A model generated the notes under the pieces. It searched no databases. It was not told where the DNA came from and was given only the letters and a program-made list of their open reading frames with translations. 64,000 bases of DNA from an uncultured Phascolarctobacterium sp. (GTDB lineage Bacteria; Bacillota; Negativicutes; Acidaminococcales; Acidaminococcaceae). Shown in pieces: positions 32,879 through 61,657 of the stretch. Each line of letters opens with the position of its first letter. Position 1 is the stretch's first letter. The stretch spans positions 62,001 to 126,000 of the forward strand of contig CANREP010000002.1 of NCBI GenBank assembly GCA_947629685.1, in the 5' to 3' direction. The position numbers and the translations under genes are program-made.

Positions 32879-33328
32879 TTACCATTTTTCAGGTATATTT
32901 TCAAAGCTGCCAATAACATATGCGGTTCCTTGCAGTTTTGTTAGTAAAATATCGTGGCTATCATAGGTATTTACTTCAACTACTATAACCTTGTGTCCAC
33001 GTTGCAATACACGCGCTACAGATTTTGCAGTATCACCGGCTTTAATATTTTTTAAAAAGTTTATTGAATAGTCAATGGTAACTATTCTGGCTCCCGTACT
33101 GGCACAAGCTGTTCCGAGAGCTGTATCCGCCAAAGCGGCCAACGCTCCGCCGTGTACTACAGAATACATATTAGTATGCTTGCTGCTGTCTACTTTCATA
33201 GTCAGTACAGCAGTACCACAGGAAATATCCTGAAACTCTATCCCACATAATGCAACAAAAGCATTTTTGCTGTAATTATCAACTATGATTTTAGTTATAT
33301 CAGCTTTGGTCAGCGGCTGTTCACTCAT
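32879..33328 (-). CDS. Hotdog-fold thioesterase, PaaI type
   Basis: This 149-residue protein belongs to the PaaI/YigI-like hotdog thioesterases that hydrolyse acyl- or aryl-CoA. The signature VVHGGALAALADTALGTACAS near residue 58 contains the HGG turn and the catalytic Asp of the family. The substrate is not known. ATG at 33328 is preferred over GTG at 33337 because AGGTG then lies about 7 bases upstream. It overlaps the end of the PLP enzyme gene by 8 bases and is the last gene of the long minus-strand run that begins with rnj. Confidence 0.88.
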   Translation of the reverse strand: MSEQPLTKADITKIIVDNYSKNAFVALCGIEFQDISCGTAVLTMKVDSSKHTNMYSVVHGGALAALADTALGTACASTGARIVTIDYSINFLKNIKAGDTAKSVARVLQRGHKVIVVEVNTYDSHDILLTKLQGTAYVIGSFENIPEKW

Positions 33329-34562
33329 TATGGGCACCTACTCTTTTGGCAGCAGCCATTATAGCCAGTCTGCCGTGTTCAAAAGTCAAGCCGCCCTGGA
33401 AGAAAACATTGTAAGGTTCGCGGCAGGGACCGTCTGCACTTAGCTCAATAGAAGCACCCTGAACAAAAGTTCCGGCAGCCATGATTATCTCGTCCTGATA
33501 ACCAGGAAGCGGAGACGGTACCGGCTCAACATGAGCATCTACAGGAGAATTGCTTTGGATGGCCACGCAGAAGTCGCACAGACGTTTCCGTGTTTCCAGT
33601 GTTATCGCTTGAATAATATCGCTGCGCGTTTCTTCCGGCTGCGGTTTAACTGCATAACCAAGGCTTTGGAAAACAGATGCAGCAAAAATAGAAGTTTTGA
33701 CCGCCTGTAAAACAATATGGGGAGCCATAAATAATCCCTGGTAGAATTCACGTGCTGTATCGCCTAAAGTGGCTCCCATTTCTCCCCCTAAACCAGGCGC
33801 CGTAAGTCTGTAGGATGCCTTCTCCACCAGCTCCTGCCTGCCAACGATATATCCGCCTGTAGGTGCAAAACCACCGCCTAGATTCTTAATTAAAGAGCCA
33901 GCCATCAAATCGGCACCTACTTCTGTAGGCTCCTGTTTTTCAATGAACTCGCCATAGCAGTTATCAACAAAACAGATTACGTCAGGATTTGCTTCTTTGG
34001 CAGCCTGACAAATACGACCTATTTCAGCAACATCAATAGTTTTACGCAAGCTGCTGTAGCCGCAAGAGCGCTGAATATGAATCATTTTTGTTTTTGCAGT
34101 AACAGCTTTTTTTACAGCGTCCAGATCTACATGGTCGCCAGTCATGGGGATTTCCTTATATTCTATACCTAAATCTACCAGGGATCCCTCAGTTTTTTCA
34201 GGGTACCCGATAATAGTCTGCATAGTATCATAGGGAGTTCCTGTTACGGCAATAAGCTCGTCGCCGGCACGCAGATTACCTAATAAGGCTACTGCCAGCG
34301 CGTGAGTGCCAGATACAAACTGAGAACGCACGAGCGCAGCCTCAGTTTTAAATATTTCGGCATAAATAAGGTCTAATTTTTCGCGGCCGACATCAGAATA
34401 AGCATAGCCAGTAGTCGGTTTAAGATAAAAATCTGAAACCATATTATTACGAAAAGCAGCGATTACTTTTTCAGTGTTATAAAGTGCTGCTTCTTCCAGT
34501 TTTTTACTCTGTAAAGCAACTGCTGCCAGTGCTTTTTCTTCAATCTCCTGATAATTGATCAA
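33321..34562 (-). CDS. ynbB: PLP-dependent methionine gamma-lyase-like protein, YnbB family
   Basis: This 413-residue fold-type I PLP enzyme belongs to the YnbB family, once labelled aluminium resistance protein and related to cystathionine beta- and methionine gamma-lyases. The PLP lysine is in SLIKNLGGGFAPTGGY near residue 224, and SGTHALAVALLG near residue 84 forms the phosphate cup. The reaction of the family is not established. It overlaps hflX by four bases. The hflX-ynbB pair is also found in Bacillus, so the link is old. The start ATG 34562 is fixed by that overlap and gives a standard N-terminus. Confidence 0.9.
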   Translation of the reverse strand: MINYQEIEEKALAAVALQSKKLEEAALYNTEKVIAAFRNNMVSDFYLKPTTGYAYSDVGREKLDLIYAEIFKTEAALVRSQFVSGTHALAVALLGNLRAGDELIAVTGTPYDTMQTIIGYPEKTEGSLVDLGIEYKEIPMTGDHVDLDAVKKAVTAKTKMIHIQRSCGYSSLRKTIDVAEIGRICQAAKEANPDVICFVDNCYGEFIEKQEPTEVGADLMAGSLIKNLGGGFAPTGGYIVGRQELVEKASYRLTAPGLGGEMGATLGDTAREFYQGLFMAPHIVLQAVKTSIFAASVFQSLGYAVKPQPEETRSDIIQAITLETRKRLCDFCVAIQSNSPVDAHVEPVPSPLPGYQDEIIMAAGTFVQGASIELSADGPCREPYNVFFQGGLTFEHGRLAIMAAAKRVGAHNE

Positions 34563-36391
34563 TTTTCTTCACCTTTGCTAAGATAATTTTCAAATTCATT
34601 TATTGCTTCCGCCGCTAAACGTACTTTAAGTTTTGTACCTTCTGCAAGATATTCCTGCTCCAATACAGTACCGATAGTGTGCAGTTTTGCGGCCTTATCG
34701 GAATCACTGTAAGGGATAACAAAGTAAGCTTCTACGGCTTTTAAATTTAGATTTTCACTAATCAGTTCCAACAGTTTATCAGTATTCATACCGCTTTTAG
34801 CCGAAATACAGATACTGTTTTCTTCTTGTTCCAGTCTATTGATAAGGCCGGATGCATCCTGCAGTTTATCAACTTTATTATATACGGTAATAATCGTCTT
34901 ATCCTTTACCCCTATTTCATTGAGTACTTGATAAACTGCCCTGCTTTGTTCCTGGTAGAGTTCATGGCTTACATCTATTACATGCAAAAGAATATCTGCT
35001 TCAACAACTTCTTCCAGTGTAGACTGAAAAGCAGCTACCAGTTGATGTGGCAGCCGTTGGATAAAACCGACTGTATCAGTAAGGATAACCTGTTGTTTAT
35101 CAGGAAGATTAAGCTGCCGCATGGTGGGATCAAGTGTTGCAAAGAGTTGATCCTTAGCATAAATATCAGAATTGGTAAGCTTATTAAGCAAGGTTGACTT
35201 ACCTGCATTAGTGTATCCTACTAAGCTGACGGTGGGTATAGAAGCCTTATTTCTTCCAGTCCTATGTAAAGTACGAACGCTTTTTACCTTGCCAATACAT
35301 TCTTTCAGATACGCGATACGATCCCTAATCCTGCGACGATCGACTTCCAGTTTGGTTTCGCCTGGGCCGCGGGTACCGATACCGCCGCCAAGACGAGATA
35401 GGCTGAGACCTTTGCCCATAATACGCGGTAGCGTATATTGCAGTTGCGCAAGTTCTACCTGCAGTTTACCTTCGTTGGTATGTGCGCGCTGAGCAAAAAT
35501 ATCGAGGATTAAAGCCGTGCGGTCAAGCACGCGTATACCCATAGCCTGTTCAATATTGCGCTGCTGGGCCGGTGAAAGGTCGTCATCAAAAATACACAGA
35601 TCTATATTTTCCTGCTGCACATAAAGCGCCAATTCCTGCACCTTGCCTTTACCAATGAAAAAAGCCGGATCTGGTTTAGGGCGCTTTTGAATGAACTTTG
35701 CAACCACGACGGCTCCCGCAGTATCAGCAAGCTGTTTCAGTTCTTCCACGGAATCTTCTATGCTCCAGCCAGAGACGCCAAACAAGCCGCTGTACTCCAT
35801 CCCTACCAAAATAGCTCTTTCCGCTGTTTTGGCCAGAGCCGTACTGTCAGACTGTTTATCCAGAATTCTTTCTACCGTATTGACTAAGTTGGGGAAATAG
35901 ATATTTTCTGCTTCGGCCAGTTGCATTGGCCCGTAGCATTCAGTTACAAACTGTTCATTGGCATCAATACCCACTATCATTCCGAAACTGGCGGTTGAAG
36001 CAGTGTAGTCAGGCGAGGTAACACCTATAGCAATCATTGCATCAAAACGGTTGTTTTTAAGCGCTGAAATATCGACGCCGCTAAGAGCAGAATTGCCGTT
36101 AGGATGTGTATGTACGCACCTGATGCCGTTTAAACGGCTGCTTTTTCTACGCCCTTCTGCATTAGGCAGCTCAACACTTTCTGTACTTCCGACAGCAACG
36201 CTCAGTACCTGTCCGCTGCGGCTGATGTAGACGGATATTTCTCTGTTAATAAATTCCGTAATATCAGCAAGCTTTAAGGCCAGCTCAGTTGTTAAAAGCT
36301 GCCCGGAGGACAGCTTTATATCATAAATCGTCTTTAATTCATCAATGACGGAGTTTCGGATACCTTTCAGATTACCCAATATTTCTTTCAT
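34559..36391 (-). CDS. hflX: GTPase HflX with an N-terminal JAMM/RadC-like domain
   Basis: HflX binds the ribosome and can split stalled 70S particles in stress. The 610-residue protein is about 180 residues longer than Bacillus HflX. Its core (about residues 190-610) has the HflX N-terminal domain (FFIGKGKVQEL), a GGIGTRGPGETKLE linker motif, the P-loop GYTNAGKST and DTVGF. The added N-terminal domain contains H94-T-H96-P-N-G followed by S104 and D107, the exact HxH-x7-S-x2-D spacing of JAMM metalloproteins and RadC. A candidate active-site Glu is E51. Whether this domain binds zinc is untested. GGAGATGA lies about 7 bases before ATG 36391. Confidence 0.93.
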   Translation of the reverse strand: MKEILGNLKGIRNSVIDELKTIYDIKLSSGQLLTTELALKLADITEFINREISVYISRSGQVLSVAVGSTESVELPNAEGRRKSSRLNGIRCVHTHPNGNSALSGVDISALKNNRFDAMIAIGVTSPDYTASTASFGMIVGIDANEQFVTECYGPMQLAEAENIYFPNLVNTVERILDKQSDSTALAKTAERAILVGMEYSGLFGVSGWSIEDSVEELKQLADTAGAVVVAKFIQKRPKPDPAFFIGKGKVQELALYVQQENIDLCIFDDDLSPAQQRNIEQAMGIRVLDRTALILDIFAQRAHTNEGKLQVELAQLQYTLPRIMGKGLSLSRLGGGIGTRGPGETKLEVDRRRIRDRIAYLKECIGKVKSVRTLHRTGRNKASIPTVSLVGYTNAGKSTLLNKLTNSDIYAKDQLFATLDPTMRQLNLPDKQQVILTDTVGFIQRLPHQLVAAFQSTLEEVVEADILLHVIDVSHELYQEQSRAVYQVLNEIGVKDKTIITVYNKVDKLQDASGLINRLEQEENSICISAKSGMNTDKLLELISENLNLKAVEAYFVIPYSDSDKAAKLHTIGTVLEQEYLAEGTKLKVRLAAEAINEFENYLSKGEEN

Positions 36392-36422: not shown

Positions 36423-38015
36423 TTATCTTCTGACACGCGCAGGTTCTACATTGATTTTATAGCCTTTGATGGTGTTTCTATGCATTGCGCCCAATACTTT
36501 TTCAGCAACGTCTTCAGGTACTTCCACAAAGGTGAATTTATCATAGATATTTATCAGGCCGACATCGCGTGCAGGAATATCAGCTTCGATAGCGATAGTG
36601 CTGACAATATCCTTCACGGTTATTTTTTGGCTGCGGCCGACATTCATAAACAGACGGACCATACCGGGACGAGCGCCAGTATTTTTCAGCTCAACAGCTA
36701 TTTCGTCTTCTTGCGGTGCTTCCAGTGCCTTGATACCTTCCTGCATGAGTTTTAAAGCCGCAGCAGCAATTTCTTCGGCAGAATAATCATCCAGCAGGCT
36801 TTCAGCAATAGGCATATAGTCCTGGAAATTATTGAGTTCCAGAACGGTTTGCATCTTAGTAAGAATCTGTTCGCGCTGACGTTCGATAACATTGGCTGCA
36901 GTGGGCAGCTGACGGCGTACAATTTTTGTTTTTACGGTTCGTTCAATCAGTTTCAGCTGACGGAATTCACGCGGAGTGATAAATGTCATGGCAACGCCGG
37001 TATTGCCGGCACGGCCTGTACGTCCGATACGATGCACATAGCTTTCTGGATCCTGGGGGATATCAAAGTTAACAACATGAGTAATATTATCGATATCAAT
37101 ACCGCGCGCAGCCACGTCAGTTGCAATAAGAATATCGACGGAACCTTCGCGGAACTTTTTCATTACTCTGTCGCGCTGATTCTGGCTCAGGTCGCCGTGC
37201 AGTCCTTCTGCCATATAACCACGGCTGGAAAGCGCGATGGAAAGATCATCAACGCCTTTTTTGGTCCGGCAGAAAATAATCAGTTTACCGTCAATCTCTG
37301 TATCCAGCAGCCGGCACAGCCCTTCTACTTTATCCTTAGTTTCAAAATAATACTGTTCAATAAGCGGTACCGTAAGCTCTTCCTTAGTAATGGTAACAGA
37401 CTTAGGCGCTTTCATATATTTTTTTGTCAGGCTCAGGATGGGACGCGGCATAGTTGCAGAAAACAGTAAAGTCTGCCGTTCGGCAGGCAGATTCTTCATG
37501 ATTTCTTCAATATCATCCACAAAACCCATATCCAGCATTTCATCCGCTTCGTCAAGTACAAGAAATTTAATATGGTCCAATTTGATGGTGCGCCTGTTAA
37601 TATGGTCGATGAGCCTGCCGGGAGTACCGATGACAATCTGAACATTATTTTTCAGAGCACGAATCTGACGCTCTATTGGTTGTCCGCCATAAACAGGAAG
37701 CGCCTTGACACGTGTAGTTCTACCAATCTTGCCCACTTCTTCAGCAACTTGGATAGCCAGCTCGCGGGTCGGTGTCATGATGAGGGCTTGGATATGACGG
37801 TGATCGGTGATACTTTGCACCAGCGGAATACCAAACGCAGCAGTTTTGCCGGTACCGGTTTGAGCCTGTCCGATAATATCATTGCCTTCCAAAACCAAGG
37901 GGATTGTAGCTGCCTGGATTGGAGATGGTTCTTCAAAGCCCATGTCAGTAAGAGCAGCAACGATTTTTTTATCAAGCAGTAATTCACCGAAATTTTCTTT
38001 TTGTGTATTTGACAT
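36423..38015 (-). CDS. deaD: DEAD-box RNA helicase, DeaD/CshA type with C-terminal RNA-binding domain
   Basis: This ATP-dependent RNA helicase works in ribosome assembly and RNA decay, especially in cold. The 530-residue protein has the Q motif (GFEEPSPIQ), AQTGTGKT as motif I, PTRELA, the DEAD box (VLDEADEMLDMGF), SAT, and HRIGRTGRAG. The C-terminal part (about 450-530) matches the DbpA-type RNA-binding domain (VRLFMNVGR). Length agrees with DeaD of Firmicutes. GGAGGAAT lies before ATG 38015. The hflX, helicase and RNase J genes in one run suggest a shared stress or RNA-handling transcript, as inference. Confidence 0.95.
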   Translation of the reverse strand: MSNTQKENFGELLLDKKIVAALTDMGFEEPSPIQAATIPLVLEGNDIIGQAQTGTGKTAAFGIPLVQSITDHRHIQALIMTPTRELAIQVAEEVGKIGRTTRVKALPVYGGQPIERQIRALKNNVQIVIGTPGRLIDHINRRTIKLDHIKFLVLDEADEMLDMGFVDDIEEIMKNLPAERQTLLFSATMPRPILSLTKKYMKAPKSVTITKEELTVPLIEQYYFETKDKVEGLCRLLDTEIDGKLIIFCRTKKGVDDLSIALSSRGYMAEGLHGDLSQNQRDRVMKKFREGSVDILIATDVAARGIDIDNITHVVNFDIPQDPESYVHRIGRTGRAGNTGVAMTFITPREFRQLKLIERTVKTKIVRRQLPTAANVIERQREQILTKMQTVLELNNFQDYMPIAESLLDDYSAEEIAAAALKLMQEGIKALEAPQEDEIAVELKNTGARPGMVRLFMNVGRSQKITVKDIVSTIAIEADIPARDVGLINIYDKFTFVEVPEDVAEKVLGAMHRNTIKGYKINVEPARVRR

Positions 38016-61460: not shown

Positions 61461-61477
61461 AATCAGTAATCACAGTT

Positions 61478-61640
61478 ATGAGATAGCACTCCGCTGCTTG
61501 CTGCAGCGACAGTCCGTCAATTATTCACTGACAGCCCAGCATACCAGCATGGCTGCTGATAAACTTCGGCGCTAACCCTTTCGCCTGTCTCTACACTCCC
61601 GCTCCACAGGTTACTATTGTTTCGCGCTCCTCTACCTTAA
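61478..61640 (-). promoter_or_regulatory. Lysine riboswitch (L box) aptamer
   Basis: The minus strand shows the conserved L-box elements in order: GGTAGAGG-AGCGCGA, an AGTAA turn, GGCGAAAGGG, GCGCCGAAG, GGCTGTCAG, GGACTGTC and GGAGTGCTATC. P1 forms from AGGTAG and CTATCT. The known function is to bind lysine and stop transcription; here it controls dapB-asd-lysC-dapA through the adjoining terminator. Confidence 0.95.
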
Positions 61641-61657
61641 ATCCATTTATTGTATTG

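Follow-up and report, generated by a model that had tools for sequence, protein, structure and literature searches.

A JAMM/MPN-type domain with a conserved active-site motif is predicted at the N-terminus of HflX in Phascolarctobacterium and other Bacillota

Background

HflX frees stalled or antibiotic-bound ribosomes, and zinc enzymes of the JAMM type, to which the domain described here appears related, remove ubiquitin in human cells. The MPN domains of Prp8 and eIF3 are not known to retain the metal ligands. In the available text of one structural study, the HflX core on the 50S subunit has its ND1 at H69 and a loop reaching into the peptidyl-transferase centre, and the mycobacterial HflX N-terminal extensions, 39-58 residues long, reach uL16, H38 and the H69-71 junction (PMC12493154). 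N-terminal extensions of HflX in several Clostridium species are mentioned in the accessible part of one review, which gives no identity for them.

The JAMM motif, as defined for AfJAMM and Csn5, is E-xn-H-S/T-H-x7-S-xx-D, in which the His and Asp residues sit on zinc and the Glu holds a water (PMC300881). In the available passages of two further papers, RadC/JAB is argued to be a nuclease without the groove for a ubiquitin tail (PMC3482391, PMC5512222).

The JAMM superfamily and HflX are each already known; their combination seems undescribed in the literature searched. No JAMM domain on HflX was found in that literature, which lies mostly outside the subscription journals and outside bioRxiv. 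A paper by Srinivasan et al. (2018) reportedly deals with the modules and evolution of HflX. Where HflX and JAMM were paired, the word, in the text fragments retrieved, was "jammed", "jamming" or an author name.

The hflX gene and its product

The window is a stretch of 64,000 nucleotides from an uncultured Phascolarctobacterium sp. (contig CANREP010000002.1, positions 62,001 to 126,000). It encodes an HflX whose core is complete. Canonical HflX occupies residues 212-548 (Pfam GTP-bdg_N, GTP-bdg_M and MMR_HSR1), the GTPase motifs are present as in known HflX, the protein scores 491.9 bits against NCBIfam TIGR03156 (cut-off 216.75 bits, E 8.6e-148), and it matches HflX in the PDB at E 5e-97. 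It differs from known HflX by an extra 185-residue predicted JAMM domain in front. Relative to short HflX, such as the 418-aa protein in PDB entry 8a57, the N-terminal extension is ~190 aa; an earlier note on this DNA gave ~180 residues over Bacillus HflX. Many HflX open frames in the phylum genome sample are ~415-460 aa long. The features of the locus are as follows.

33321..34562, minus strand: methionine gamma-lyase family protein, YnbB-like, downstream of hflX (Pfam Met_gamma_lyase, 1.6e-176)
34559-36391, minus strand: hflX open reading frame, 610 aa
34559..35836, minus strand: HflX core (Pfam, NCBIfam TIGR03156, PDB HflX match); its parts by Pfam are GTP-bdg_N 212-300, GTP-bdg_M 302-380, the GTPase domain 388-506 and a C-terminal part
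35837..36391, minus strand: predicted JAMM/MPN-type N-terminal domain, HflX residues 1-185 (AF2 model, structure comparison, AMSH/RadC profile matches)
36071..36073, minus strand: D107, predicted metal ligand (conservation)
36080..36082, minus strand: S104, predicted stabiliser of the tetrahedral intermediate (conservation)
36104..36106, minus strand: H96, predicted metal ligand (conservation)
36110..36112, minus strand: H94, predicted metal ligand (conservation)
36125..36184, minus strand: basic loop, residues 70-89, between the second and third strands (A1/A2 conservation)
36239..36241, minus strand: E51, glutamate with a predicted acid-base role in the JAMM site (invariant in 85/85; falls on RadC E21)
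36423..38015, minus strand: DEAD-box RNA helicase carrying a DbpA-type RNA-binding domain, upstream of hflX (Pfam)

The JAMM motif and its conservation

The complete signature E-xn-H-T-H-x7-S-xx-D is found in the window HflX as E51, H94-T-H96, S104 and D107. The earlier note had recognised a JAMM signature here and had placed H94, H96, S104 and D107 correctly, but had missed E51. It had also pointed to a RadC-like spacing, and the E/H/H/S/D spacing is indeed common to RadC, with HxHPxG in most members. Amino-acid composition by itself predicts 0.0004 occurrences of H-x-H-x7-S-x2-D per 610-aa protein; conservation is a stronger argument than this expectation for a real motif.

Thirty-seven genomes of the window's own family were searched and 30 loci kept, the other genomes having yielded fragments, matches that gave no locus, or nothing on the scale of HflX. 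The motif is present in all 30 loci, and in alignment A1, made from 20 of them, E51, H94, H96, S104 and D107 are all invariant. Such constancy among close homologs had been set in advance as a check on the motif. More widely, 174 loci, in which some genomes appear as two records, gave 145 distinct N-terminal domains, which were thinned to 92 at <70% identity. The 85 with H/H/S/D form alignment A2, which has a mean column identity of 35%, and the 7 without were excluded. HTH is invariant across the A2 domains, as is E51 (85/85), though A2 was picked for H/H/S/D and not for E51. All five site residues are found in 132 of the 145 distinct domains, and the 13 without the motif belong to two lineages. 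Seven columns have zero entropy in the 132 motif-bearing domains (E51, G60, G68, H94, H96, S104 and D107), of which the H/H/S/D columns were pre-selected and E51, G60 and G68 were not.

The predicted fold

The AF2 model of the domain, computed from A1, has a pLDDT of 88.3 and a pTM of 0.86. E51 sits in this model after two helices and directly before the first predicted strand (52-57). A Foldseek search of the PDB with the model gave no match at E ≤ 0.001; a GAF domain headed the rows, and many JAMM/MPN chains followed closely. VIA-align, which only re-aligns the Foldseek candidates, filled at least 49 of its 50 displayed rows with JAMM/MPN/RadC chains. The title of one row, 2kks, names no family, and some chains, e.g. 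those of EMC and the proteasome, are ones we take to be JAMM/MPN. The best row was RadC (2qlc, Z 7.7, 3.0 Å over 99 residues), followed by PfJAMM1 (5ld9, Z 7.4, 3.7 Å over 112), and AfJAMM (1oi0) aligned with Z 6.8 and 3.2 Å over 99 residues; AMSH and Sst2 chains are also among the 50 rows shown. No row reached Z ≥ 8 for the domain model. A Z below 8 alone might mean a common arrangement; the fold is accepted because the rows nearly all belong to one superfamily and the sequence agrees. HflX residues 1-185 are therefore predicted to form a JAMM/MPN-type domain, and the comparison of these residues with JAMM/RadC folds, also named in advance, came out JAMM-like.

The loop of residues 70-89 carries the consensus VELP..RR...RLSG, conserved in A1 and A2. 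Model confidence is low here (pLDDT averages 57 over residues 71-80 and 77 over 81-90), and the loop is a candidate contact to substrate or ribosome.

Sequence links to named families

The A2 profile found 19 matches among PDB sequences at E ≤ 10, and the 14 that head the list belong to AMSH, AMSH-like proteins or Sst2. In these deubiquitinases the HTHP-x6-S-xx-D stretch aligns over the active site, but the alignment spans only ~27-58 residues, with E 0.0018 at best. The shallower A1 profile gave 6 matches among PDB sequences and no JAMM protein.

The domain shares its predicted fold and catalytic set with Prok-JAB (PF14464), AfJAMM and PfJAMM1, and differs in its new domain partner and in its scores. 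Prok-JAB gave 13.0 bits on the window protein against a cut-off of 25 and matched 53 of the 85 A2 members at E ≤ 1. Pfam RadC (PF04002) had no match to the window protein at E ≤ 10; it matched 29 of the 85 members at E ≤ 1, the best at 4.7e-4. In the 11 members whose Pfam scores were inspected, all were below the curated cut-offs or unmatched, the best RadC score being 18.8 against a cut-off of 22.1. NCBIfam gave no family for the domain alone.

Profile comparison by hhalign joined A2 to 27 RadC domains at E 1.2e-4 and 55% probability; the control with 8 close HflX GTPase domains, a thin profile, gave E 0.39 and 0.2%. With A1 the values were E 0.0044 and 8%, and E51 aligned with the invariant E21 of RadC. 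HNHPSG is invariant in the 27 RadC domains, whereas an active-site loop of this type is absent from the 85 HflX domains, which have HTH instead. The HflX domain resembles RadC in its predicted fold and in the spacing of the site, but it has HTHP rather than HNHP, a long conserved loop after the second strand, and is fused to HflX.

Searched against 398 genomes at E ≤ 0.01, A2 gave seven extra weak matches beyond the HflX domain set. Five, in five genomes, are RadC-type ORFs (HNHPSG, E 2.7e-4 to 0.009); these are the best non-HflX genome matches of a profile that was built without RadC rows. The RadC profile itself, run against PDB sequences, finds RadC and, at E ~1, AfJAMM, so such links are weak even between accepted relatives. 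The other two extra matches are a detached piece of an intron-split hflX and an ORF near an ftsY-like gene. The latter (L259:728-1876, minus strand, genome G133) has 383 aa, shows HTHPGGSG in the second half, is unmatched by Pfam at E ≤ 0.01, and is possibly another distant JAMM-like protein.

Distribution and tie to the HflX core

In the 398 phylum genomes the HflX core was found in 305 (E ≤ 1e-50) and the domain in 73 (A1, E ≤ 0.001); most HflX-bearing genomes of this sample are without the domain. Sixty-three of the 73 domain-bearing genomes, the window's own included, were read: 49 have an active-type domain with the core, 13 a degenerate domain with the core, and one (L142) an active-type domain on a contig that ends early, before the core. 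Domain and core share one frame in 173 of 174 loci, some being copies of one genome. The 73 genomes (63 read) have one domain match each, in frames of 522-702 aa except for G362 at a contig end. A standalone domain outside HflX was looked for in the 398 genomes and none was found (A1, E ≤ 0.001; 63 of the 73 domain-bearing genomes read).

A contig search confirmed at least 563 relatives. The best 80 of these, which were kept, carry titles of Negativicutes and of Bacillota of the Clostridia type; two are MAGs labelled Acholeplasmataceae, and all 80 are active-type. IMG/VR gave one relative, also in an HflX frame.

A quick core tree was made from 99 HflX sequences: 43 active (every second of 84 representatives of 161 loci), 10 of the 14 degenerate and all 46 domain-free. 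With 36 of its 96 inner branches open, it needs 10 changes to explain the active label and 12 to explain the three states together; the history of the domain may be one gain followed by losses, or several gains.

Several variants of the gene were seen. In genome G060 the match begins at residue 177 and lies in a 460-aa frame, maybe an HflX without the domain inside the window's class. Genome G045, of the same class, has two full-length HflX (G045:C1:2319754-2321529 and 3553193-3554968), both matching residues 2-604, domain included. In L260 (G147:C1:2536800-2542500) the JAMM part of hflX is broken, past residue ~44, by a group II intron that encodes its own reverse transcriptase/maturase. Loci L205-L208 (family f72) join HflX to a C-terminal Dus-like (tRNA-dihydrouridine synthase) domain in one frame of 740-830 aa; Pfam Dus gave 1.4e-97 for L205, the one tested. 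In L114/L212 (G094), ~50 extra residues lie inside the GTPase domain after the P-loop.

Degenerate domains

Thirteen of the 145 distinct domains have lost H94; in the core tree they fall into two lineages (families f62/f114 and f106). As aligned, they have H at column 96 in one, E51 in 8, S104 in 7 and D107 in 5. Scaffold motifs are kept, e.g. NR-x-G, and RLSGLR in one lineage. The extension of L209 (G208), which adjoins f62/f114 in the core tree, is too diverged for the JAMM profiles and keeps the NRRG and LSGLR motifs. Counting L209, 14 loci are without H94 and much of the site and keep HflX. Catalysis is therefore not essential to such HflX everywhere, which suggests that the domain also has a non-catalytic role. 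The many HflX without the domain likewise weigh against a general need for the catalysis.

A model of one degenerate domain has a pLDDT of 84.9, and 49 of 50 rows in its comparison are JAMM/MPN, including the MPN domains of Prp8 and eIF3, the identities of some chains being our assumption; the remaining row is a deaminase. Four of the 11 rows in the alignment behind this model are active-type and may push it towards a JAMM fold. As in the MPN-minus pseudoenzymes Prp8 and eIF3, the fold would be kept and the metal ligands are lost; Csn6 is a further pseudoenzyme of this kind according to the title of a paper. The window protein differs from these in keeping the full site. The same GTPase comes with an active domain, a degenerate one or none, which makes a natural contrast set for finding the substrate.

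Mechanism and alternatives

By computation, the domain is predicted to fold as JAMM, and its E/H/H/S/D site is intact and strongly conserved. The window protein is probably an ordinary ribosome-splitting HflX with an N-terminal JAMM-plus domain, in which a metal-dependent hydrolase would be delivered to the subunit interface. Of the earlier note's interpretation, the JAMM/RadC-type domain on HflX is borne out by predicted fold and conservation, and the metal-dependent hydrolase in ribosome rescue is retained as a proposal. H94, H96 and D107 would bind one zinc or similar divalent metal, E51 would activate a water and S104 would stabilise the transition state, as in AfJAMM. The HflX core would dock with GTP on a stalled 70S ribosome or a free 50S subunit. 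By analogy with the mycobacterial extension, the domain, which lies just upstream of ND1, may be held at the subunit interface near uL16 and H38, towards H69-71. There it would hydrolyse a protein that occurs at stalled or split ribosomes, at a peptide or an isopeptide bond; candidate targets are the tail of a ribosomal protein, a factor bound there and a nascent chain. The GTPase would be the targeting device and the JAMM domain the cutting tool, and in lineages without the active-site residues the domain would stay as a binding or regulatory module. In many Clostridia and Negativicutes, HflX may then both cut and split, as a rescue or ribosome-remodelling enzyme with a built-in JAMM metallo-(iso)peptidase, and pseudoenzyme descendants of the domain may only bind. 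This is put forward tentatively, as a serious possibility that falls somewhat short of probable.

A RadC-like nuclease would draw on the place of RadC at the head of the structure matches, where it is tied within 1 Z unit with PfJAMM1 and AfJAMM, and on the RadC-type ORFs as nearest non-HflX sequence matches in genomes. The nuclease proposal for RadC/JAB, as set out in the passages cited above (PMC3482391, PMC5512222), the conserved basic RR...R of the loop and the work of HflX amid RNA would also suit it. However, the active site reads HTHP, like AMSH, and not HNHP, like RadC, the A2 profile finds AMSH proteases and not RadC among PDB sequences, and the nuclease role of RadC is, in the same passages, itself a proposal from context. 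A nuclease is quite unlikely on this evidence; the hydrolase is more likely a peptidase, because the HTHP and the PDB sequence matches point to AMSH-type sites.

A domain that is catalytically silent in practice, binding metal as a structural or sensing module and tuning the HflX GTPase or its docking to the ribosome, is also unlikely on balance. Such a role would agree with the lineages that lack H94 and much of the site and keep the scaffold motifs, and with the JAMM/MPN rows of the degenerate model, but a purely structural role would hardly preserve the water-activating E51 in all of 85 domains not picked for it. The Pfam scores, below cut-off or absent, and the weak Foldseek E-values might be taken to mean a chance motif in an unrelated N-terminal extension. 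The composition expectation, the fold, E51 and the conservation speak against this; it is extremely improbable, and structure comparison and conservation together rule it out.

If the proposal of a peptidase delivered by HflX is true, stalled-ribosome processing in many Clostridia and Negativicutes, among them gut genera like Phascolarctobacterium, includes a covalent cutting step, of which no report was found in the literature searched. The HflX domain may also bear on what bacterial RadC-like JAMM domains cut.

Gene neighbourhood

The called downstream gene overlaps the end of hflX by 4 bases. Neighbours were surveyed in 68 of 80 loci, up to 5 kb on each side, 12 being dropped for want of a single HflX ORF by pattern; identities were read from sequence, except for four window neighbours that were run against Pfam. 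In 51 of the 68 loci the next gene on the same strand falls in a cluster read as the methionine gamma-lyase family, and in 30 of the 68 the preceding gene on the same strand falls in one read as the DEAD-box helicase family. Among the 22 most recurrent neighbour clusters of these loci no ubiquitin-like, E1 or E2 genes were recognised by eye, and the neighbourhood, within 5 kb on each side, gave no substrate lead. Other recurrent neighbours are common ones, cinA, rimO, lexA and spoVK-like genes. The order of hflX and its next gene presumably resembles the ynbA-ynbB order of Bacillus. Elsewhere in the window, a lysine riboswitch aptamer lies at 61476-61642 on the minus strand (108.5 bits).
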